A stretch of 31,654 bases of DNA from a virus, in the IMG/VR virus record IMGVR_UViG_3300045999_010590, positions 1-31,654 of that record; one strand, given 5' to 3'. The position numbers were made by a program, and so were the translations under genes. This document shows positions 2,463-24,317 of this stretch, piece by piece; the first letter of the stretch is position 1; each line of letters begins with the position of its first letter. Under the pieces are notes generated by a model. It was not told the DNA's origin and did no database searches. It was given only the letters and a program-made list of their open reading frames with translations.

Positions 2463-2492
2463 AATATAATAAAAAAGGCTTGGTTTCCCAAG
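2463..2492 (-). promoter_or_regulatory. Promoter of clamp-loader gene (CTTGG-N19-TATATT)
   Basis: Minus strand: CTTGG (2488-2492), 19 bases, TATATT (2463-2468), then 6 bases to the ATG at 2456. The CTTGG lies in the hairpin arm of the terminator at 2475-2496. The spacing predicts an mRNA starting at or next to the start codon. Confidence 0.65.
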
Positions 2493-2496
2493 CCTT
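2475..2496 (-). terminator. Intrinsic terminator after ADP-ribosyltransferase gene
   Basis: Perfect 9-bp stem (AAGGCTTGG / CCAAGCCTT) with a 4-base loop, followed on the minus strand by a T run. It lies directly after the stop of the gene at 2500. Its left arm doubles as the TTGG box of the next promoter. Confidence 0.85.
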
Positions 2497-2499
2497 AGT

Positions 2500-3105
2500 T
2501 TATAATTTTCCTAATAATATATCTGCTGAGGGTATCATCCATTCTGCATTATTAATGGTATTACCTAAATGGAATATTTCCTTTTCAGCTTTCAAACTTA
2601 ATCTATCAGAAATAGGTTTAGTTAAATTAGGATTACCAACAAAAGTATCATCTATCTTAACTCTTATTACAGCAGGACGCGCTCCTTTATCTAAACGTGG
2701 ATTATTAAATAAACCTTTTTCAGCAAACCGTTGAGCTACTTTAAAATCATATGTCCAACTTTGAGCTTCTGAGGTACTTTCATAAGGAGCTTGTATTATA
2801 GTGTATCCTCCTTCTTTAGTTGTTTGATTATTTTTTATTTTATTATATTGTTCAGGGGTAATAGAAGTACCTCGATATGCATATCCTGATTTAGGTTTCA
2901 GTACGTTAGAGTAGTTGTTTTTATTTTGTAAAAGCCATGTTACCAAATCATTAAACTCATTCCCATCTAAATTATGTTGTGATTCAATATAATGAATAAG
3001 TAAGTTTTTATACTCTGCATTGTCAAGTATATCGATATTAGCAAATAACTTGACTAATGGTTCTTTAGTTTTAACTTCTCGCAACAAATCAATTAATCGT
3101 ATCAT
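2500..3105 (-). CDS. Putative ADP-ribosyltransferase, R-S-E class
   Basis: 201 aa. The three NAD-binding and catalytic signatures of arginine-type ADP-ribosyltransferases appear in order: R78 in YAYRGTS, the STS motif S110-T111-S112 (YESTSEAQSW), and E-x-E at E174-K175-E176 (KAEKEIFHLG). T4 Alt, ModA and ModB belong to this class and modify host RNA polymerase and ribosomal proteins. The N-terminus MIRLIDLLRE is short, hydrophobic and ends in L-x-E, like a T4 capsid-targeting/cleavage signal; T4 Alt is packaged and processed this way. It lies two genes from tagged proteins that carry clearer signals. Length is much shorter than Alt and nearer to ModA/ModB. Target unknown. A variant AT box at 3107-3117 precedes it. 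Confidence 0.72.
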   Translation of the reverse strand: MIRLIDLLREVKTKEPLVKLFANIDILDNAEYKNLLIHYIESQHNLDGNEFNDLVTWLLQNKNNYSNVLKPKSGYAYRGTSITPEQYNKIKNNQTTKEGGYTIIQAPYESTSEAQSWTYDFKVAQRFAEKGLFNNPRLDKGARPAVIRVKIDDTFVGNPNLTKPISDRLSLKAEKEIFHLGNTINNAEWMIPSADILLGKL

Positions 3106-3394: not shown

Positions 3395-3424
3395 AATATA
3401 ATAAAAAAAGCTTGGTTTCCCAAG
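3395..3424 (-). promoter_or_regulatory. Promoter of 87-aa gene (CTTGG-N19-TATATT)
   Basis: Minus strand CTTGG (3420-3424), 19-base spacer, TATATT (3395-3400), 6 bases to the ATG at 3388. The TTGG box lies within the hairpin of the terminator at 3408-3427. Confidence 0.65.
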
Positions 3425-3468: not shown

Positions 3469-3900
3469 TTATTTAAAGAAATCATCATTATCAGGTAAAT
3501 TATCCAATGAATCTGAGATGTATAAATCTACATCTGATTTAGATACTTTTGTTCCTTCTTCTTCCCAATATGTATTAAAATTTAATCCTAAATCAATTTT
3601 AGCTAAATCTTCATCAGAATAATCATCCCACGTTCCAGATTGTTTTGCTAAACTTAAAGCATCATCCTCACCTCCAGCAGTATGCCCTTTAATACTCCAT
3701 TTAAAATATTCTTTAGGAGTCATATTTGTTAAACCTTTACTGATTTTTTGTAAGTAATAAGGAGCAAATTTTTCTACACCAGGTAAAATATTTAAAGCAC
3801 CTAAGTTGACATTACCTTCATTTAATACTTCTAACATTTTACGAGCTTGGCCTTCGGTGATAATACCTGCCAATTGATTCATTCTAATTATGTCTTTCAT
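3469..3900 (-). CDS. Unknown protein with N-terminal capsid-targeting-like tag (143 aa)
   Basis: Residues 1-28 are nearly the same as the starts of the proteins at 3949 and 20794: MKDIIRMNQLAG, then IITEG, then EVLNEG. ITE-G and LNE-G both match the T4 gp21 prohead-protease rule ((I/L)-x-E before G/A). After the tag the protein is unrelated to the other two. It has a segment NMTPKEYFKWSIKG (about 59-72) and a very acidic C-terminus (DNLPDNDDFFK). No known domain seen. I infer that the tag is cut off during head maturation and the remainder is packaged. Both an ATATTTATAA box and a TTGG-N19-TATATT promoter lie upstream. Confidence 0.72.
   Translation of the reverse strand: MKDIIRMNQLAGIITEGQARKMLEVLNEGNVNLGALNILPGVEKFAPYYLQKISKGLTNMTPKEYFKWSIKGHTAGGEDDALSLAKQSGTWDDYSDEDLAKIDLGLNFNTYWEEEGTKVSKSDVDLYISDSLDNLPDNDDFFK
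3817..3900 (-). repeat. Tag-coding repeat, copy 1
   Basis: The 84 bases encoding the 28-residue N-terminal tag. DNA similarity to 21022-21105 is very high (for example CGAGCTTGGCCTTC on the plus strand in both) and similarity to 5083-5166 is clear. The similarity stops where the tag ends, pointing to module shuffling. Confidence 0.75.
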
Positions 3901-3913
3901 CTTGATAATTTTA

Positions 3914-3948
3914 TTATAAATATAAGAAAAGGATTTAAGGTTTCCAAG
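3914..3948 (-). promoter_or_regulatory. Dual promoter of tagged gene: ATATTTATAA box plus CTTGG-N19-TATATT
   Basis: Minus strand CTTGG (3944-3948), 19 bases, TATATT (3919-3924), overlapping ATATTTATAA (3914-3923), 13 bases before the ATG at 3900. The spacer AAACCTTAAATCCTTTTC closely resembles the one at 21136-21154. Confidence 0.6.
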
Positions 3949-5166
3949 TTAAAAAATAATTGATTTTTTCACCCCAGGTACCATTTTCTTTATTTGTTTT
4001 TGGGTGTATTTCTGGGATAAGGGGGTATCAAATAAAAATACCTCACCCCGAACTTCTAAACTATTGGGTAAAGATTCAATTGGGAGTCCATTTAAATACA
4101 AATTCTCTCCAACTCTTAAATCACCAGGTAAAGATTGGATTTTAGTATCTATTAAACTTAAATTACCCCTAACCTGTAAACCATTAGGTAAAGATTTAAT
4201 TGGAGTATCTTCTAAATTCAAGTCTCCATTAACTTTTAATCCATCAGGTAAAGATTCAATTTGGCTATTTGATAAATCTAATCCACCAGTAAATTTGAAT
4301 CCTTTAGGTAAAGATTTAATGGCTGTATTTCTTATTTCAAAATCCCCTTTGACCTCAAGATTATCAGGTAAGGATTGGATTTTAGATTTTGCTAAATGTA
4401 AACCACCTCCAAGTTTTAAATCATTAGGTAATGATTGAATCTGTGTATGCCACAAATATAAATCACCTCCTACTTTTAATCCCTTAGGTAAAGATTCAAG
4501 TGTAGTAGAACTTAAATCCAAATCCCCTTTAACATCAAGATTATCAGATAAAGATTTAATTGGAGTATAACCTAAACTTAAACCACCTCCAACCTTTAAT
4601 CCTTTAGGTAAAGATTGGATTTTTGATTTAGTTAAATCTAAATTACCTCCAACTTCTAAATCATCAGGTAAAGATTCAATTGGAGTATATCCTAAATCTA
4701 GTTCACCCTTAACCTTTAATCCTTTGGGTAAAGATTTAATAGATGTATAATCTAATTTTAAATCACCCTTAATATCAAGATTATCAGGTAAGGATTGTAT
4801 TTTGGTACTTGACAAATTTAGATTACCGTCAATTTTTAAATCTTTGGGTAAAGATTCAATTGGAGTAGAGCTTGCATTTAAATTACCTCTAACATGTAGA
4901 TTATTAGGTAAAGATTTGATTGAACTCCCAATCAAAACCAAATCACCCCCAACGCTTAAATTATCAGGCAAAGATTGAATTTTAGTATTCATTAAATATA
5001 AATCACCCTTCCCTCCTTTTTCAATATATTGTTGGATTTGTGGTTCAATATCTTTACTTTTATCAATGGTATAATAATTTGCTTCGTTTAATATTTCTAA
5101 CATTCTTTTAGCTTGGACTTCAGTAATAATTCCAGCTAATTGTTGCATTCTTATAATGTCTTTCAT
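3949..5166 (-). CDS. Leucine-rich-repeat protein with capsid-targeting-like tag
   Basis: 405 aa. Residues 1-28 are the shared tag (MKDIIRMQQLAG ... EILNEA, with LNE-A as a T4-type cleavage site). About residues 65-384 hold 16 tandem 20-residue repeats of the form SLPxxLxVxGxLxLxxTxIx. The 20-residue period and the central LP resemble the short LRRs of secreted bacterial effectors (YopM/IpaH type), though no E3 or other enzymatic domain follows. The last 20 residues are basic (KKMVPGVKKSIIF). LRRs bind proteins, so a host-protein-binding, virion-delivered role is an inference. A TTATAAATAT box lies 3 bases upstream of the start. The closest relatives could also be tail or surface LRR proteins. 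Confidence 0.82.
   Translation of the reverse strand: MKDIIRMQQLAGIITEVQAKRMLEILNEANYYTIDKSKDIEPQIQQYIEKGGKGDLYLMNTKIQSLPDNLSVGGDLVLIGSSIKSLPNNLHVRGNLNASSTPIESLPKDLKIDGNLNLSSTKIQSLPDNLDIKGDLKLDYTSIKSLPKGLKVKGELDLGYTPIESLPDDLEVGGNLDLTKSKIQSLPKGLKVGGGLSLGYTPIKSLSDNLDVKGDLDLSSTTLESLPKGLKVGGDLYLWHTQIQSLPNDLKLGGGLHLAKSKIQSLPDNLEVKGDFEIRNTAIKSLPKGFKFTGGLDLSNSQIESLPDGLKVNGDLNLEDTPIKSLPNGLQVRGNLSLIDTKIQSLPGDLRVGENLYLNGLPIESLPNSLEVRGEVFLFDTPLSQKYTQKQIKKMVPGVKKSIIF
4015..4974 (-). repeat. 60-bp tandem repeats encoding LRRs
   Basis: Sixteen in-frame 60-base units inside the LRR gene. The period shows on the plus strand as a recurring AGGTAAAGATT every 60 bases. Units are diverged, with alternating sub-types (IQSLP versus IKSLP/IESLP), suggesting growth by duplication of larger blocks. 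Confidence 0.9.
5083..5166 (-). repeat. Tag-coding repeat, copy 2
   Basis: 84 bases encoding the tag of the LRR protein. It is the most diverged of the three copies: V replaces G after ITE, and K20-R21 replaces R-K. Confidence 0.7.
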
Positions 5167-7887: not shown

Positions 7888-7917
7888 AATATACGAAACT
7901 TTTTTTAATTTTCCAAA
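7888..7917 (-). promoter_or_regulatory. Promoter of chaperonin operon (TTTGG-N19-TATATT)
   Basis: Minus strand TTTGG (7913-7917), 19 bases, TATATT (7888-7893), 6 bases to the ATG at 7881. The TTTGG lies inside the end of the upstream 65-aa coding region. Confidence 0.68.
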
Positions 7918-11977: not shown

Positions 11978-12007
11978 AATATAATAAAAAAAGGGCTTGA
12001 AACCAAG
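11978..12007 (-). promoter_or_regulatory. Promoter of DNA polymerase gene (CTTGG-N19-TATATT)
   Basis: Minus strand CTTGG (12003-12007), 19 bases, TATATT (11978-11983), 6 bases to the ATG at 11971. The TTGG box overlaps the hairpin at 11992-12011. Confidence 0.65.
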
Positions 12008-12034: not shown

Positions 12035-13300
12035 TTAAGCCAACATTATGTATTCTGTTACTCCATTAATAACTACAGCCCATGTTTTAGATGATTGAGT
12101 ACAAACAGCCGAAGCTACTGTTCCTACGTTTGTACCTGAACTACCTACAACTAATTGGTTATTGCCTGTTGCTGTAGCTCCTTTACCTAGGATTACTGAA
12201 TAACTAAAGTTGCCGGATACTGTATTAGCTCCTAAAGCTATATTATCACATCCAGTTGTATTAGCACAAATCGCTTTATATCCTATGGCTATATTACAAC
12301 GTCCTGAGGTGTTGTTACGTAAAGCATCTTTACTTAAAGCTACGTTATAACAGCCTGAGGTATTATAGAACATAGCATTTTGATTCATTGCTATATTATT
12401 TTTACCTGTTGTATTACAAAATAAAACATTACGGCCTATTGCTGTATTATAACAGCCTGTTGTGTTTTTACATAAAGCACTACGTCCTATTGCTGTATTA
12501 TAATTTCCCGAGGTATTGGCACGTAAAGTATCAGTACCCAAGGATGTATTAGAATAACCTGAAGTATTTGAAAGTAAACTGTTACTACCTATAGCAATAT
12601 TATATTTACCTGTTTCATTAGAAGTTAAAGCACTACGTCCTATTGCTGTATTGAATGCTCCTGATGTGTTTTTATATAAAGTTTTAAATCCTATAGCAGT
12701 ATTATTACAACCTATTGTATTATCACTCATAGCAAAATAACCGATAGCGGTATTATGACTGCCTGTTGTATTAAAACGAAGAGTATATACACCTATTGCT
12801 GTGTTATAGCCACCCGAGGTATTAGAAATTAAGGATCTTAAACCTATAGATACATTATGTCTACCTGTTATATTACCTTTTAAAGCATATTTTCCTATAG
12901 CTGTATTGTATTGACCTGTAGTATTATAGAATAAAGTCCCCATACCTATTGCTATATTTTCAGCCCCATTTGGATTAGATTTTAAAGCATATCTACCTAT
13001 TGCTGTATTATTACCCCCAGATGTATTAGCAAGTAAAGCATTATCCCCTATAGCTACATTAAAAGGTCCCGTTGTATTACTACTTAAAGCATTATTTCCT
13101 ATAGCTACGTTACTAGATTGAGTACCTACTCTAAAAGATAAAGAACCAGTAATTCCAATAGATCCACTGTTAAACAGAAGACTATCAGTCATATTAATTA
13201 AATTGTTTCTTACGTCTGCTGCCGAAATATCACCTGATGTGTTATCAGCAAGTAGAGTATTAATGTTGGTTTGTAGTGTGGTTTTATTTTGTTGTGACAT
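12035..13300 (-). CDS. Repeat-rich tail fibre or adhesin-like protein
   Basis: 421 aa. An N-terminal helical segment (NKTTLQTNINTLLADN ... DVRNNLINMTDSLL, 5-42) looks like a coiled or attachment region. About residues 64-368 hold 18 units of a 17-residue repeat NTAIGxxxLxxNTxGxx, expected to form a trimeric beta-helix-like shaft. A 53-residue C-terminal cap follows (VILGKGATATGN ... EYIMLA). Such repeats occur in phage fibres and bacterial surface adhesins. Cysteines are absent from the early units but frequent in units 9-18. Its place between nucleotide-metabolism and replication genes is odd for a structural gene. Probably cotranscribed with the 84-aa gene 13 bases upstream. Confidence 0.78.
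   Translation of the reverse strand: MSQQNKTTLQTNINTLLADNTSGDISAADVRNNLINMTDSLLFNSGSIGITGSLSFRVGTQSSNVAIGNNALSSNTTGPFNVAIGDNALLANTSGGNNTAIGRYALKSNPNGAENIAIGMGTLFYNTTGQYNTAIGKYALKGNITGRHNVSIGLRSLISNTSGGYNTAIGVYTLRFNTTGSHNTAIGYFAMSDNTIGCNNTAIGFKTLYKNTSGAFNTAIGRSALTSNETGKYNIAIGSNSLLSNTSGYSNTSLGTDTLRANTSGNYNTAIGRSALCKNTTGCYNTAIGRNVLFCNTTGKNNIAMNQNAMFYNTSGCYNVALSKDALRNNTSGRCNIAIGYKAICANTTGCDNIALGANTVSGNFSYSVILGKGATATGNNQLVVGSSGTNVGTVASAVCTQSSKTWAVVINGVTEYIMLA
12197..13111 (-). repeat. 51-bp tandem repeats encoding 17-residue units
   Basis: Seventeen full units plus one partial, in frame within the fibre-like gene. The core encodes NTAIG and NTTG/NTSG. Units vary in the three residues after NTAIG. 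Confidence 0.9.
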
Positions 13301-13588: not shown

Positions 13589-13611
13589 AAGGCCTAAAAA
13601 ATTTAGGCCTT
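13589..13611 (-). terminator. Intrinsic terminator after dcd-like gene
   Basis: 10-bp perfect stem (AAGGCCTAAA / TTTAGGCCTT), loop of 3, then TTTTT on the minus strand. Confidence 0.85.
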
Positions 13612-14779: not shown

Positions 14780-14809
14780 AATATAATAATATTTTTTATA
14801 AAAACCAAA
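14780..14809 (-). promoter_or_regulatory. Promoter of folE (TTTGG-N19-TATATT)
   Basis: Minus strand TTTGG (14805-14809), 19 bases, TATATT (14780-14785), 6 bases to the ATG at 14773. No hairpin here, so the promoter pattern exists independently of the terminators. Confidence 0.7.
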
Positions 14810-17509: not shown

Positions 17510-17539
17510 AATATAATAATTAGTTTTTAAATTTCCAAA
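17510..17539 (-). promoter_or_regulatory. Promoter of trx-queD-queE operon (TTTGG-N19-TATATT)
   Basis: Minus strand TTTGG (17535-17539), 19 bases, TATATT (17510-17515), 7 bases to the ATG at 17502. Embedded in the last codons of the GIY-YIG gene. Confidence 0.68.
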
Positions 17540-18101
17540 TGTAACCATAAGAACTTTTTTGTTTTCCTCTACAACAAGCTCCTATCCCATGTCCGGTTTT
17601 ATTTAAGTATTTAGTAGCTTCTATTTGTGAAGGCCATTCTTTTATAAAATTACCTTGTAAATCATATTGCAACACAGGGGTATTTTGCCAAGTATTTTTT
17701 CTATTTTTTAAAAAACCTCTAGTTTGTTTAATTTTTTGTTTATGTTCTTCTGTAAAAGGTTTTCCTTTATGGGATTTAATTTTTCCTTTGTTTCCTTCAC
17801 TTATTTTTTTGCCTCGAGTAGGATGTTGTTTTATTTTCTGAATTGATTCTTCTTTCCATTCTTCAGGGCCCCCACCTCCGTTATTTTTATTTTGCAAAGA
17901 AAATCCTTGTTTTTTAAATTTTTCAATATAATATTTTTCCCATTTTCTCCAATTTAAAACCTCAGAAATAATTTTCATAAATATATTTTCACCAAATATT
18001 TTTTTATGATTAGCTAATCTGTGATATTCATTTCTAGTTTTTCCAACATAAAAAGGAATATTATCTCCAAAATGTAAGTAGTAAATTTTAGTGCGATCCA
18101 T
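17520..18101 (-). CDS. GIY-YIG homing endonuclease with NUMOD modules
   Basis: 193 aa. The N-terminal core (IYYLHFGDNIPFYVGKTRNEYHRL) has the two GIY-YIG motif strands as YYL and YVG, with the catalytic-region Arg. Middle NUMOD3-like repeats (GKKISEGNKGKI, GKPFTEEHKQKI) and a C-terminal NUMOD1 (LQYDLQGNFIKEWPSQIEA ... YIWKFKN) bind DNA. It sits between the queC transcript and the trx-queD-queE transcript and disrupts neither. Upstream there is an ATATTTATAA box and an ATTGG-N19-AATATT arrangement. Confidence 0.87.
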   Translation of the reverse strand: MDRTKIYYLHFGDNIPFYVGKTRNEYHRLANHKKIFGENIFMKIISEVLNWRKWEKYYIEKFKKQGFSLQNKNNGGGGPEEWKEESIQKIKQHPTRGKKISEGNKGKIKSHKGKPFTEEHKQKIKQTRGFLKNRKNTWQNTPVLQYDLQGNFIKEWPSQIEATKYLNKTGHGIGACCRGKQKSSYGYIWKFKN

Positions 18102-18140: not shown

Positions 18141-18419
18141 TTATACTAATTCTTCTATTATTCCTATAATTTCACTTAATATAAGAACAGAGGCTGCAAT
18201 TACCAAGTTAAATGGAATAAAAAGATAGCCAACAATTCTTACACCTGATTTAATAAAACTTACATACCTATGCCATTTTTGATCCGGCATATACTCAATT
18301 TCTTTATGTGGTTCTTGCCACCTAGGAAATGAATAAGGATTTTCTTTTCCAGTAAGTTCTTTATAATAAGGGTTTGCTTCTCCTGTTTGTGGATCGTGTG
18401 TTGGGATTTTTTTACTCAT
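18141..18419 (-). CDS. Small membrane-anchored protein (92 aa)
   Basis: Soluble, Pro/Tyr-rich N-terminus (THDPQTGEANPYYKELTGKENPY) then a long hydrophobic C-terminal stretch of about residues 57-92 (VRIVGYLFIPFNLVIAASVLILSEIIGII), likely one long or two short membrane segments. No family recognised. Coupled to the upstream 72-aa gene by an ATGA overlap, last gene of the dpdA-queC transcript. Confidence 0.6.
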   Translation of the reverse strand: MSKKIPTHDPQTGEANPYYKELTGKENPYSFPRWQEPHKEIEYMPDQKWHRYVSFIKSGVRIVGYLFIPFNLVIAASVLILSEIIGIIEELV

Positions 18420-20739: not shown

Positions 20740-20769
20740 AATATAATAAAAAAAGCTTGGTTTCCCAAG
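20740..20769 (-). promoter_or_regulatory. Promoter of dpdA-queC operon (CTTGG-N19-TATATT)
   Basis: Minus strand CTTGG (20765-20769), 19 bases, TATATT (20740-20745), 6 bases to the ATG at 20733. TTGG box shared with the hairpin at 20753-20772. From 20740 the plus-strand sequence is the same as from 3395. Confidence 0.65.
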
Positions 20770-20793: not shown

Positions 20794-21105
20794 TTATTTT
20801 GGAATTTGACTATTAGAACTAGGTCTGATGTAATCATTTTCCAAAAATTCTTTTTTATCTACATTTATGTCCCAACCTCCATTACTACCTTCCCATCTAA
20901 AGATCAATTCAGTAGGAGTTATTTCTGAAAGTGTTACACCTGTAAACCATTTCCAAGAGGGTTTATCTTTAAAATAAAGGTCATAGATATCACCTACAGA
21001 TAAATCACCTTCAGTCATTCCTTCGTTTAATGCTTCCATCATTTTACGAGCTTGGCCTTCAGTGATTATACCAGCCAATTTGTTCATTTTGATTATGTCT
21101 TTCAT
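20794..21105 (-). CDS. Unknown protein with N-terminal capsid-targeting-like tag (103 aa)
   Basis: Third carrier of the shared tag: MKDIIKMNKLAG, IITEG, EALNEG, with further possible cleavage at MTEG. The rest (about 30-103) is a small beta-rich domain: LSVGDIYDLYF, WKWFTGVTLSEITPTELIFRWEG, FLENDYIRP. It resembles a small SH3-like or OB-like barrel, but I cannot name it. Predicted mature cargo is about 75 residues. Like the gene at 3469 it has both promoter boxes upstream and ends at the same terminator hairpin. Confidence 0.7.
   Translation of the reverse strand: MKDIIKMNKLAGIITEGQARKMMEALNEGMTEGDLSVGDIYDLYFKDKPSWKWFTGVTLSEITPTELIFRWEGSNGGWDINVDKKEFLENDYIRPSSNSQIPK
21022..21105 (-). repeat. 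Tag-coding repeat, copy 3
   Basis: 84 bases encoding the tag; nearly identical in DNA to 3817-3900, 17 kb away. Flanking promoter (spacer with TAAATCCTTTTC) and downstream terminator are also shared, so the whole cassette, apart from the cargo, seems duplicated. Confidence 0.75.
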
Positions 21106-21124: not shown

Positions 21125-21159
21125 TTATAAATATACGAAAAGGATTTAATGTTTCCAAA
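21125..21159 (-). promoter_or_regulatory. Dual promoter of tagged gene: ATATTTATAA plus TTTGG-N19-TATATT
   Basis: Minus strand TTTGG (21155-21159), 19 bases, TATATT (21130-21135), overlapping ATATTTATAA (21125-21134), 19 bases before the ATG at 21105. Confidence 0.62.
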
Positions 21160-22374: not shown

Positions 22375-23523
22375 TTAATACGTTATAATATCATCATCTT
22401 GTGGTCTGTTTTTACGTTTTTCCTGGAGTGCTTTCTCGTATTCTTTAAGTCTTGCAATCTCGGCATCAATCATCCTTTGTTTACTTAAAAGATCCACATT
22501 TTGACTATTTATGTTATTTATTCTATCTAGGGACTGGAGTAAGTTAGTGTATGCTTTTTCTTCATCCTCTATAATCCATTCATCTGAAGGTGGAGGAGTG
22601 GGGTTGTTAGATTCTTCTTCTTTTTCCCAATTTTGTAAATCAACTAAACTGGCTTCTTCCCATTCCTTCATTTCCTCTTTTAAGTCATCATATGTATCAA
22701 CTACATTTCTCATACTCTCTACCTTTTCCTCTAGGGGTGTTTCTTTGCGTTTAGTAAGTTGAGAAAAAGCAAAGTTAGCGGCTATTACAAGAGCAATAGC
22801 TAATGGATCAAATACAAATATAATAACTAGTATGTACCAGTTAATGATTCGGTCCATAGCAATTCCAGTAAGTTGACTTAAGTATTTTAAAGGACCTAAT
22901 TCACTTTCGGCTGTGGATTTAGTTTTAACCTCTAGGATTTTACTTTCAATAGCAAAAATAGAGTCATTTACTATATCAATTTTAGAAGATAATTTTTCGT
23001 TTGATTTAGAGGCAGACTCAATATTGCGGATAGCTGCATCATTGGATCTTACCACTACATTACCCTTTCTGTCTGTGTATTGAGTAGTGGATGCCTGAGA
23101 TAAATTCCCTTGTAGACTGGCTAGTGTTTGTTTTTCTTTTAAAATGTTGTCTCTAGTTTCCTCAAATAATTTTTTCTTGGATTCTAAAGATTTTATTTTA
23201 GAGTCAACAATACTAGTTTGGTCTGCTGTTTTTTGGTAACCACTACTTAGCATACCATATATTCCTGCTGAAGTTATAAGAGAAAGTATAATAAGAGAAA
23301 TTATATAATATATTTTAGATATCTTATTTAAATCATTCCAGTAAGAATGCAACATAGTTGCTAATGTTAATTTAGATATTTCTAGAAAACTAGACATTAT
23401 TATAACTGCTGTTGAAACTCCAACAAACATTTTAGATAAGCCTATTATACTGTAATAAGCTGCTGTTCCTCCTAATCCTAAAGCACAAAAAGTAATGAGC
23501 CAAGGTAATAATTTTTTATTCAT
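22375..23523 (-). CDS. Four-helix membrane protein with long coiled coil (382 aa)
   Basis: Membrane segments at about 7-27, 33-57, 71-92 and 229-253, with a charged coiled-coil loop at about 100-215 between the third and fourth (SKIKSLESKKKLFEETRDNILKEK, and IESKILEVKTKS) and a cytoplasmic-looking acidic tail with another coil (EKVESMRNVVDTYDDLKEE; RMIDAEIARLKEYEKALQEK). The last helix ends with the pattern FDPLAIALVIAANFAF. Role unknown; a host-envelope or lysis-timing function is conceivable. Its start overlaps the end of the GIY-YIG gene by 8 bases. Confidence 0.72.
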   Translation of the reverse strand: MNKKLLPWLITFCALGLGGTAAYYSIIGLSKMFVGVSTAVIIMSSFLEISKLTLATMLHSYWNDLNKISKIYYIISLIILSLITSAGIYGMLSSGYQKTADQTSIVDSKIKSLESKKKLFEETRDNILKEKQTLASLQGNLSQASTTQYTDRKGNVVVRSNDAAIRNIESASKSNEKLSSKIDIVNDSIFAIESKILEVKTKSTAESELGPLKYLSQLTGIAMDRIINWYILVIIFVFDPLAIALVIAANFAFSQLTKRKETPLEEKVESMRNVVDTYDDLKEEMKEWEEASLVDLQNWEKEEESNNPTPPPSDEWIIEDEEKAYTNLLQSLDRINNINSQNVDLLSKQRMIDAEIARLKEYEKALQEKRKNRPQDDDIITY

Positions 23524-24271
23524 TTTTATATTTCCATTTAAAGTTATAACATGTTTTTTGTTTTTTCTTACAGCAAGCTGTTATTGGAGAAGGATTAATT
23601 CCCATAAATAAAGCAGCATCTTTAGCACTCTCCCATTCTTTAATAAACACATCCTTTAAATCAAATTGTAATATTGGTTTTTTATTTGATTTTCCTATTT
23701 TATTACTCCATTCTTGGGTTCTAGGATGTGACTTTCCTTTATGAGATTCACTAATTTTTTTATTTCTTTCTTTATTGTTACTTATTTTTTCCCCAAATTC
23801 TTTTGGCTTTGATAATCCTTTATTTGAGTTTGGGATACCTTTTTTAGCTTTACTTATATTATTCTTATGTTCTTTTGATTTTTTCTTTCCTGTTAAAGCT
23901 TGACTTTTTTTGATTGATGATTCTTTACTATATTTACATCCTTTTTTAGCATTTGATATTTTAAGACAAATAGATTTATCTAATTTTCCTCCTTTTTCCT
24001 CATCATATCTTATATTTAATCCTTTTTCAACACTATTAAAATAGGTTTTCCAGTATTTTTCTCTTTTTCCTAATTCTTCCTCGATACATTCTTCAATAAT
24101 TTCCATCAAATGATTTTCCCATCCGTATTTTGATATAGAATTATATAATTTAGTTTGAGAAGAACAATTTAGTTTTTTGTAATTAGCTTTTCTTCTATTA
24201 TAATCAATAGTTTGACCTATATAAATTTTACTTGTTATAACACATGTTATTTTATAAATACAGCCTTTCAT
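23516..24271 (-). CDS. GIY-YIG homing endonuclease with NUMOD modules
   Basis: 251 aa from the ATG at 24271. I reject the 10 extra upstream codons because MKGCIYKITC matches the family start and an ATATTTATAA box lies just upstream. GIY-YIG motifs appear as CIY and YIG (SKIYIGQT). The aromatic helix KREKYWKTYF follows, then several NUMOD3-like units (SNAKKGCKYSKESSIKKSQ, HKNNISKAKKGIPNSNKG) and a C-terminal NUMOD1 (ILQFDLKDVFIKEWESAKDAA ... FKWKYKN). Free-standing, directly downstream of the RNR gene, a common target of such enzymes. Confidence 0.88.
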   Translation of the reverse strand: MKGCIYKITCVITSKIYIGQTIDYNRRKANYKKLNCSSQTKLYNSISKYGWENHLMEIIEECIEEELGKREKYWKTYFNSVEKGLNIRYDEEKGGKLDKSICLKISNAKKGCKYSKESSIKKSQALTGKKKSKEHKNNISKAKKGIPNSNKGLSKPKEFGEKISNNKERNKKISESHKGKSHPRTQEWSNKIGKSNKKPILQFDLKDVFIKEWESAKDAALFMGINPSPITACCKKKQKTCYNFKWKYKNE

Positions 24272-24276
24272 ATCTA

Positions 24277-24286
24277 TTATAAATAT
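24277..24286 (-). promoter_or_regulatory. ATATTTATAA box before GIY-YIG gene
   Basis: Minus strand ATATTTATAA, 5 bases before the ATG at 24271. No TTGG. All three GIY-YIG genes in the window have this box. Confidence 0.45.
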
Positions 24287-24317
24287 TAAACAGCTTATCA
24301 AAAAACAGAAAAATAAT

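Follow-up and report, generated by a model that had tools for sequence, protein, structure and literature searches.

Putative terminator hairpins superimposed on predicted Bacteroidota-type promoters in a group of T4-like phages

Introduction

Composite terminator-promoter cassettes termed promoter-early stem-loops (PeSLs) were reportedly described in T4-type phages by Arbiol et al. in 2010 and Comeau et al. in 2014. In these cassettes a GC-rich stem-loop and T run end one transcription unit and a promoter starts the next, and the cassettes recur as near-identical copies. PeSLs are also associated with modular shuffling of genes. The titles cited in PMC4503421 present PeSLs as composite promoter-terminator motifs of T4-type phages. 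A second arrangement, the ESAS of cluster K mycobacteriophages, combines an inverted repeat with a promoter a short way ahead of some gene starts (Pope et al. 2011, PMC3203893; PMC11373665). The ESAS combines 17 bp imperfect repeats, a variable spacer, a SigA-like promoter and a 13 bp SAS, with no T run reported.

Two further lines of work bear on the locus described here. Housekeeping promoters of Bacteroidota carry TTTG at -33 and TANNTTTG at -7 (PMC6847099, PMC2483708), and in F. johnsoniae TANNTTTG spans -12 to -5, leaving 4-5 nt to the start (PMC6847099). After intrinsic termination RNA polymerase often remains bound to the DNA and can start again from promoters close by (PMC6978380, PMC6978322); for the E. 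coli enzyme in vitro, reinitiation followed 37% of terminations, rising to 55% with added sigma (PMC6978380). Here we analyse a phage sequence in which a terminator and a promoter appear to occupy the same bases.

Results

The window and its phage

The stretch of DNA analysed, which we call the window, comprises positions 1-31,654 of IMGVR_UViG_3300045999_010590. This is the entire virus record, and at 31,654 bases it is probably a fragment. The larger open reading frames lie on the minus strand, hereafter the gene strand. Pfam matches were obtained for a family B DNA polymerase (DNA_pol_B), a clamp-loader AAA protein and QueC, and a GroEL gene was recognised by homology. As judged from the sequence, the phage is T4-like. 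The closest named phage by polymerase is Microcystis phage Mel-JY01 (PP395634), with 34% identity, and a polymerase search of IMG/VR provided 61 related contigs or loci, referred to below as the relatives.

Several other reading frames in the window have recognisable features. The frame at 3949-5166 contains about twenty LRR-like repeats of ~60 bases each. The frame at 12035-13300 consists of ~20-residue repeats (NTAIGxxAL...NTTG) that look adhesin- or tail-fibre-like; it sits directly upstream of the polymerase module described below and is unlike the neighbour found at that place in the relatives. By eye, the frames at 812-1462, 17520-18101 and 23516-24301 resemble GIY-YIG/NUMOD homing endonucleases.

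Four modules join a hairpin to a promoter box

An earlier note on this DNA had proposed that at four places the CTTGG arm of a terminator doubles as the promoter box of the following gene, with a 19-base spacer. All four sites proved to be as described, each reading on the minus strand as a GC-rich hairpin, a T run and TATATT (Table 1), and the distance from TTGG to TATATT is exactly 19 bases at 4 of 4. The identity of the arm with the box holds at three sites; at the remaining one the last G of the box (12006-12003) falls in the predicted loop. In every module an ATG follows TATATT by 6 bases on the minus strand. All four lie between co-directional genes and begin 3-41 bases past the upstream stop codon.

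RNA folding gave the four hairpins energies of -13.2 to -15.8 kcal/mol (z of -3.6 to -5.1), the lowest being that of module 1 over a 42 nt region, and none of 200 shuffles folded as well. A GC-rich RNA hairpin with a T run directly after it is the arrangement expected of an intrinsic terminator.

Table 1. Coordinates of the modules and of the comparison and contrast sites in the window
Feature	Position	Strand	Details
Module 1 upstream gene	2500-3105		
Module 1 hairpin	2496-2475	-	AAGGCTTGG-GAAA-CCAAGCCTT, 9 bp stem; TTGG 2488-2491
Module 1 remainder of T run and TATATT (-10/-7 element)	2463..2474	-	TATATT 2463-2468
Module 1 downstream gene, clamp loader (gp44-like AAA)	ATG 2456	-	Pfam AAA, weak Gp44_lid
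Module 2 hairpin	3427-3408	-	AAGCTTGG-GAAA-CCAAGCTT; TTGG 3420-3423; after gene 3469-3900
Module 2 T run and TATATT	3395..3407	-	TATATT 3395-3400; ATG 3388
Module 3 hairpin	12011-11992	-	AGGGCTTG-GTTT-CAAGCCCT; TTGG 12003-12006; after gene 12035-13300
Module 3 T run and TATATT	11978..11991	-	TATATT 11978-11983
Module 3 downstream gene, family B DNA polymerase	ATG 11971	-	Pfam DNA_pol_B
Module 4 hairpin	20772-20753	-	AAGCTTGG-GAAA-CCAAGCTT; TTGG 20765-20768; after gene 20794-21105
Module 4 T run and TATATT	20740..20752	-	TATATT 20740-20745; ATG 20733
Hairpin-free promoter	21130..21158	-	TTGG-N19-TATATT, no stable hairpin; comparison site
Hairpin-free promoter	17510..17538	-	Comparison site
Hairpin-free promoter	14780..14808	-	ATG 6 nt downstream, FolE-like gene (by eye); comparison site
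Hairpin-free promoter	7888..7916	-	ATG 6 nt downstream; comparison site
TTGG-N19-TATATT without terminator hairpin	3919..3947	-	Comparison site
Stand-alone terminator-like hairpin and T run	13589..13611	-	No TTGG; contrast site

A promoter motif with a fixed 19-base spacing

The window holds 11 copies of TTGG-N19-TATATT, every one of them on the gene strand, compared with an expectation of 0.30 +/- 0.58; none of 100 shuffles reached 11. Four copies are fused with a terminator hairpin, five stand hairpin-free ahead of gene starts and two lie in coding sequence, where those at 18206 and 3226 may be chance occurrences. Across the 61 related contigs TTGG/TATATT was enriched at spacing 19 only (250 versus ~6 at other spacings), with 3 on the opposite strand. 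A scan of all 256 four-base boxes singled out TTGG (196 distinct sites), followed more weakly by TTTG (19), and among the relatives TACATT, TATCTT, TACCTT and TAAATT were likewise enriched with TTGG at this spacing. The peak at 19, the box scan and the TANNTT variants therefore establish the promoter motif as real and independent of the hairpin.

A TANNTT core at a fixed spacing from an upstream TTG box matches what is expected of a promoter for Bacteroidota sigma-A. The complete TANNTTTG element at -7 is missing, the base after TATATT being mostly A, T or C rather than the start of TG, and TTGG combined with TANNTTTG gave no peak at spacing 19. The phage GroEL was closest to Bacteroidota among the 22 genomes compared, by a small margin. 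Because the 19-base spacing and TANNTT fit this group and GroEL matches it best, the host is probably a member of the Bacteroidota.

TTGG-N19-TATATT was not found in Mel-JY01. That genome has ~20 TTG-N20-TANNTTTG sites (L217-L220), often of the form TTGcat...cgTATATTTG and mostly ahead of plus-strand genes, which by their sequence are classical Bacteroidota promoters. Its recorded host is Microcystis elabens; the phage may in truth infect a bacterium that lives alongside the cyanobacterium. A Sigma70_r4 search of seven large relatives returned one sub-threshold match in one contig, within a 199-codon open frame (L221, G001:159036-159164) of a 269 kb relative, which is a possible phage sigma factor.

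At the minus-strand starts 5166, 13568, 15569, 18101 and 21537, where TTGG is absent, we observed another motif linked to gene starts, ATATTTATAA, lying a few nt ahead of the ATG. Within it the T4 late box TATAAATA is present in reverse complement, and motifs of this type were enriched 2-3 nt ahead of ATG in the relatives.

Hairpin and promoter are fused across the relatives

Looking for the joint module in related phages was one check suggested in the earlier note, and the module was found both in the 61 contigs and in a scan of IMG/VR. A terminator search blind to TTGG returned 37 distinct gene-strand terminators followed by TATATT, 34 of which carry TTGG in the hairpin at exactly 19; five other gene-strand terminators are the same module with TACATT, TATGTT or TATTTT. 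Upstream of orthologous gene starts we found 46 hairpins with a T run, among which a promoter was present in 42, with the box inside the hairpin in 41, and 4 had no promoter; a stricter cut-off in this ortholog-based search gave 40 of 45. Hairpin-free TTGG-N19-TANNTT stands upstream of ~160 orthologous gene starts, and overall about four-fifths of the TTGG/TANNTT promoters lack a hairpin. In these stretches, then, almost all terminators that separate genes of the same direction incorporate a promoter box, most promoters are free of a terminator, and the hairpin is an optional addition to the promoter. The related sequences are not independent, and the counts are therefore not counts of events.

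The two classes of site differ in the spacer. The values for fused and hairpin-free promoters were -13.6 versus -0.1 for the hairpin dG and 6.5 versus 3.6 T for the last 8 spacer bases, and the hairpin-free promoters fill a spacer of the same length with mixed A and T. At fused sites the gap between the end of the stem and the -10 varies from 4 to 10 nt while TTGG keeps its distance of 19.

This constancy speaks against a reading in which the module is a terminator only, TTGG and TATATT merely accompany a terminator sequence that is favoured, and the downstream gene is reached by read-through. The hairpins would make good terminators, and CTTGG also occurs in some terminators that have no recognised promoter, but such a reading leaves the ~160 hairpin-free copies unaccounted for. 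It is also at odds with the IMG/VR scan for CTTGG-N4-CCAAG-T run-TANNTT, which retrieved modules by the fused pattern itself: at least 120 stretches matched at spacing 19, and one matched with the spacing lengthened by three bases to 22. With the shuffles and this spacing control we rejected both chance and the terminator-only account, the latter being extremely improbable.

The same fused pattern gave 33 matches in 257 Gb of prokaryote genomes, scattered over many phyla. We read these as background and rejected an origin in host genomes; the fused pattern is therefore a phage feature.

Pairing is conserved and the box is fixed

In 20 distinct stems 100% of the cells pair, and 10 cells have changed on both sides (shuffle mean 2.7, reached by 0 of 500), with the proviso that the shuffles ignore relatedness and that hairpin detection itself favours paired sequences. 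Nine of the 10 double changes fall in the two outer pairs, as A-U, G-C and G-U. In the four pairs that involve TTGG the box side is fixed apart from one TTGA/TCAA, and 7 cells on the partner side have drifted by G-U. Tolerance of wobble pairs points to RNA; that the box stays frozen opposite a drifting partner suggests a further constraint acting on the box alone.

A palindrome over a -35 box is also the classic layout of an operator, and an operator role has been proposed for the ESAS repeats (PMC11373665), so that the module could instead be a DNA site for a dimeric regulator with the T run incidental. In that case it is difficult to see why the loop varies in length (3, 4 or 6, on stems of 6-11 bp), why the outer arm bases vary with compensatory changes and why the partner strand accepts G-U wobble with pairing still complete. 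The T run is not incidental either: at least 5 T in a row adjoin the stem at 105 of 124 hairpin sites versus 31 of 258 hairpin-free ones, in a comparison set partly retrieved by the fused pattern. On the basis of the wobble-tolerant pairing, the variable loop and the T run we rejected the operator, which we consider very unlikely.

The module also comes and goes as a unit. Ahead of the polymerase gene, with the same upstream neighbour, relatives have either the module with a ~60-base gap (twice ~185) or no module and an ATG overlapping the stop codon. The polymerase module is further found beside ~9 other upstream neighbours, giving ~10 unrelated neighbours among the relatives. Individual loci depart from the standard form: L033 has TTGA with a matching partner, and L053 has TTGG with a differently paired stem and TATTTT at 19. 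In L048 the box and -10 are kept and the hairpin has decayed, and in L038 the hairpin lies in the spacer next to the box; the overlap is therefore not absolute. We also observed sites (L038:15234, G002 4975-5003 and G007 18037-18065) whose spacer is occupied by a long GC hairpin that begins within or right after TTGG, with almost no T run ahead of TATATT.

Taken together, the enrichment specific to spacing and strand, the covariation with a frozen TTGG, the presence or absence of whole modules and the hairpin-free promoters of the same spacing strongly support the central proposal of the earlier note, that one module carries the terminator of the upstream gene and the promoter box of the downstream gene; this support is comparative, and we infer the two activities from it.

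Discussion

The most probable explanation by far, in our view, is that an intrinsic terminator physically overlaps a Bacteroidota-type promoter that gives leaderless or short-leader transcripts. The 5' stem arm of a Rho-independent terminator would hold TTGG as the -33/-35 element for the co-directional gene that follows, and the terminator's remaining parts (loop, 3' arm and T run) would make up the fixed 19-base spacer to TANNTT (-10/-7). As RNA, the hairpin would fold and the transcript of the upstream gene would be released within the T run, ~13-20 bases ahead of the next start. As duplex DNA, the same bases would be read by a Bacteroidota-type RNA polymerase holoenzyme, presumably with a host sigma factor, and initiation at or next to the ATG would yield a leaderless or nearly leaderless mRNA. 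In this way ~45 bases of DNA could stop one transcript and start the next.

The predicted start sites follow from the spacing of the ATG. At 29 of 42 fused sites it lies 6 nt past the -10, and by the F. johnsoniae rule six bases between TANNTT and ATG would place +1 at the A of the ATG; for the remaining fused sites we predict leaders of ~1-20 nt. In the window the minus-strand starts at 2456, 3388, 11971, 20733, 7881 and 14773 all have an ATG 6 nt past TATATT, with or without a hairpin, and are predicted to produce leaderless mRNAs.

The overlap may serve compaction or insulation only, and this fits the sequences as well as does a coupling of the two events, which the earlier note had raised as a possibility. 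Two proposals of this kind extend the terminator-promoter explanation and are not alternatives to it. The first is insulation, in which the terminator keeps upstream read-through out and the gene is made solely from its own leaderless transcript. The ATG spacing just described would agree with this, as would the frequency of fused sites ahead of replication genes (polymerase, clamp-position gene, clamp loader and a primase-like gene). Hairpin-free promoters also lie 6-9 nt ahead of an ATG, however, so leaderless starts do not require a hairpin, and we hold insulation only tentatively, as somewhat less than an even prospect.

The second is a relay, in which a polymerase terminating in the T run would already be on the next promoter and, captured by sigma, would initiate there, so that successive genes would be transcribed as linked yet separate leaderless messages. 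The release point would lie inside the promoter, and the idea is mechanistically plausible because it is established in vitro that polymerase can be retained and can reinitiate once it has terminated. The promoter could just as well be occluded by the terminating polymerase, though, and with some four-fifths of the promoters hairpin-free a relay is not needed for initiation. We regard it as unlikely.

It is of interest that opposite signals, one read in RNA and the other in DNA, are kept in the same bases across a large group of uncultured phages. With stop codon, terminator, promoter and start in ~45-80 bases, the module offers a defined natural template for testing whether polymerase is handed over or blocked at an overlapping promoter. 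For Bacteroidota genetics it could also be a compact part, and in the genomes of these phages it could mark promoters and the ends of operons automatically.

Comparison with known systems

Any coupling would rest physically on polymerase recycling (PMC6978380, PMC6978322); such recycling was shown in vitro with the E. coli enzyme and separated signals, whereas the present module is natural and its signals overlap. The phage promoter shares with the Bacteroidota housekeeping promoter the TANNTT core and its 19-base spacing to a TTG-containing box, but has TTGG as that box and lacks the final TG of TANNTTTG. Most F. johnsoniae transcripts carry leaders, whereas those from the phage modules are predicted to be leaderless or to have short leaders.

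The ESAS resembles the module in pairing an inverted repeat with a promoter close to gene starts and in having repeat-free versions elsewhere. We found no SAS-like sequence in the present modules, and their stems adjoin the T run. In the literature searched, which left most subscription papers and both PeSL papers outside its scope, we found no description of a superimposed terminator and promoter.

The closest known kind is the PeSL, likewise a short intergenic cassette in which a stem-loop terminator and a promoter are combined between genes of T4-like phages. The PeSL promoter is a strong sigma70-like early one (TTGACA/TATAAT), and the module has TTGG/TATATT in its place. We measured the PeSL geometry in RB49, where nine terminators have a strong downstream promoter whose -35 starts 16-19 nt (7) or 33-34 nt (2) past the stem; the same search found no terminator with a strong downstream sigma70 promoter in the first 50 kb of KVP40. 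The signals of RB49 thus stand side by side, whereas in the present module the stem encloses the box and the promoter spacer contains the T run. From this geometry the module is therefore the same kind of cassette, in which another promoter is used and the signals are superimposed. Composite cassettes of terminator and promoter are already known from T4-type phages; what appears to be new is the superposition of two opposite transcription signals in the same bases.
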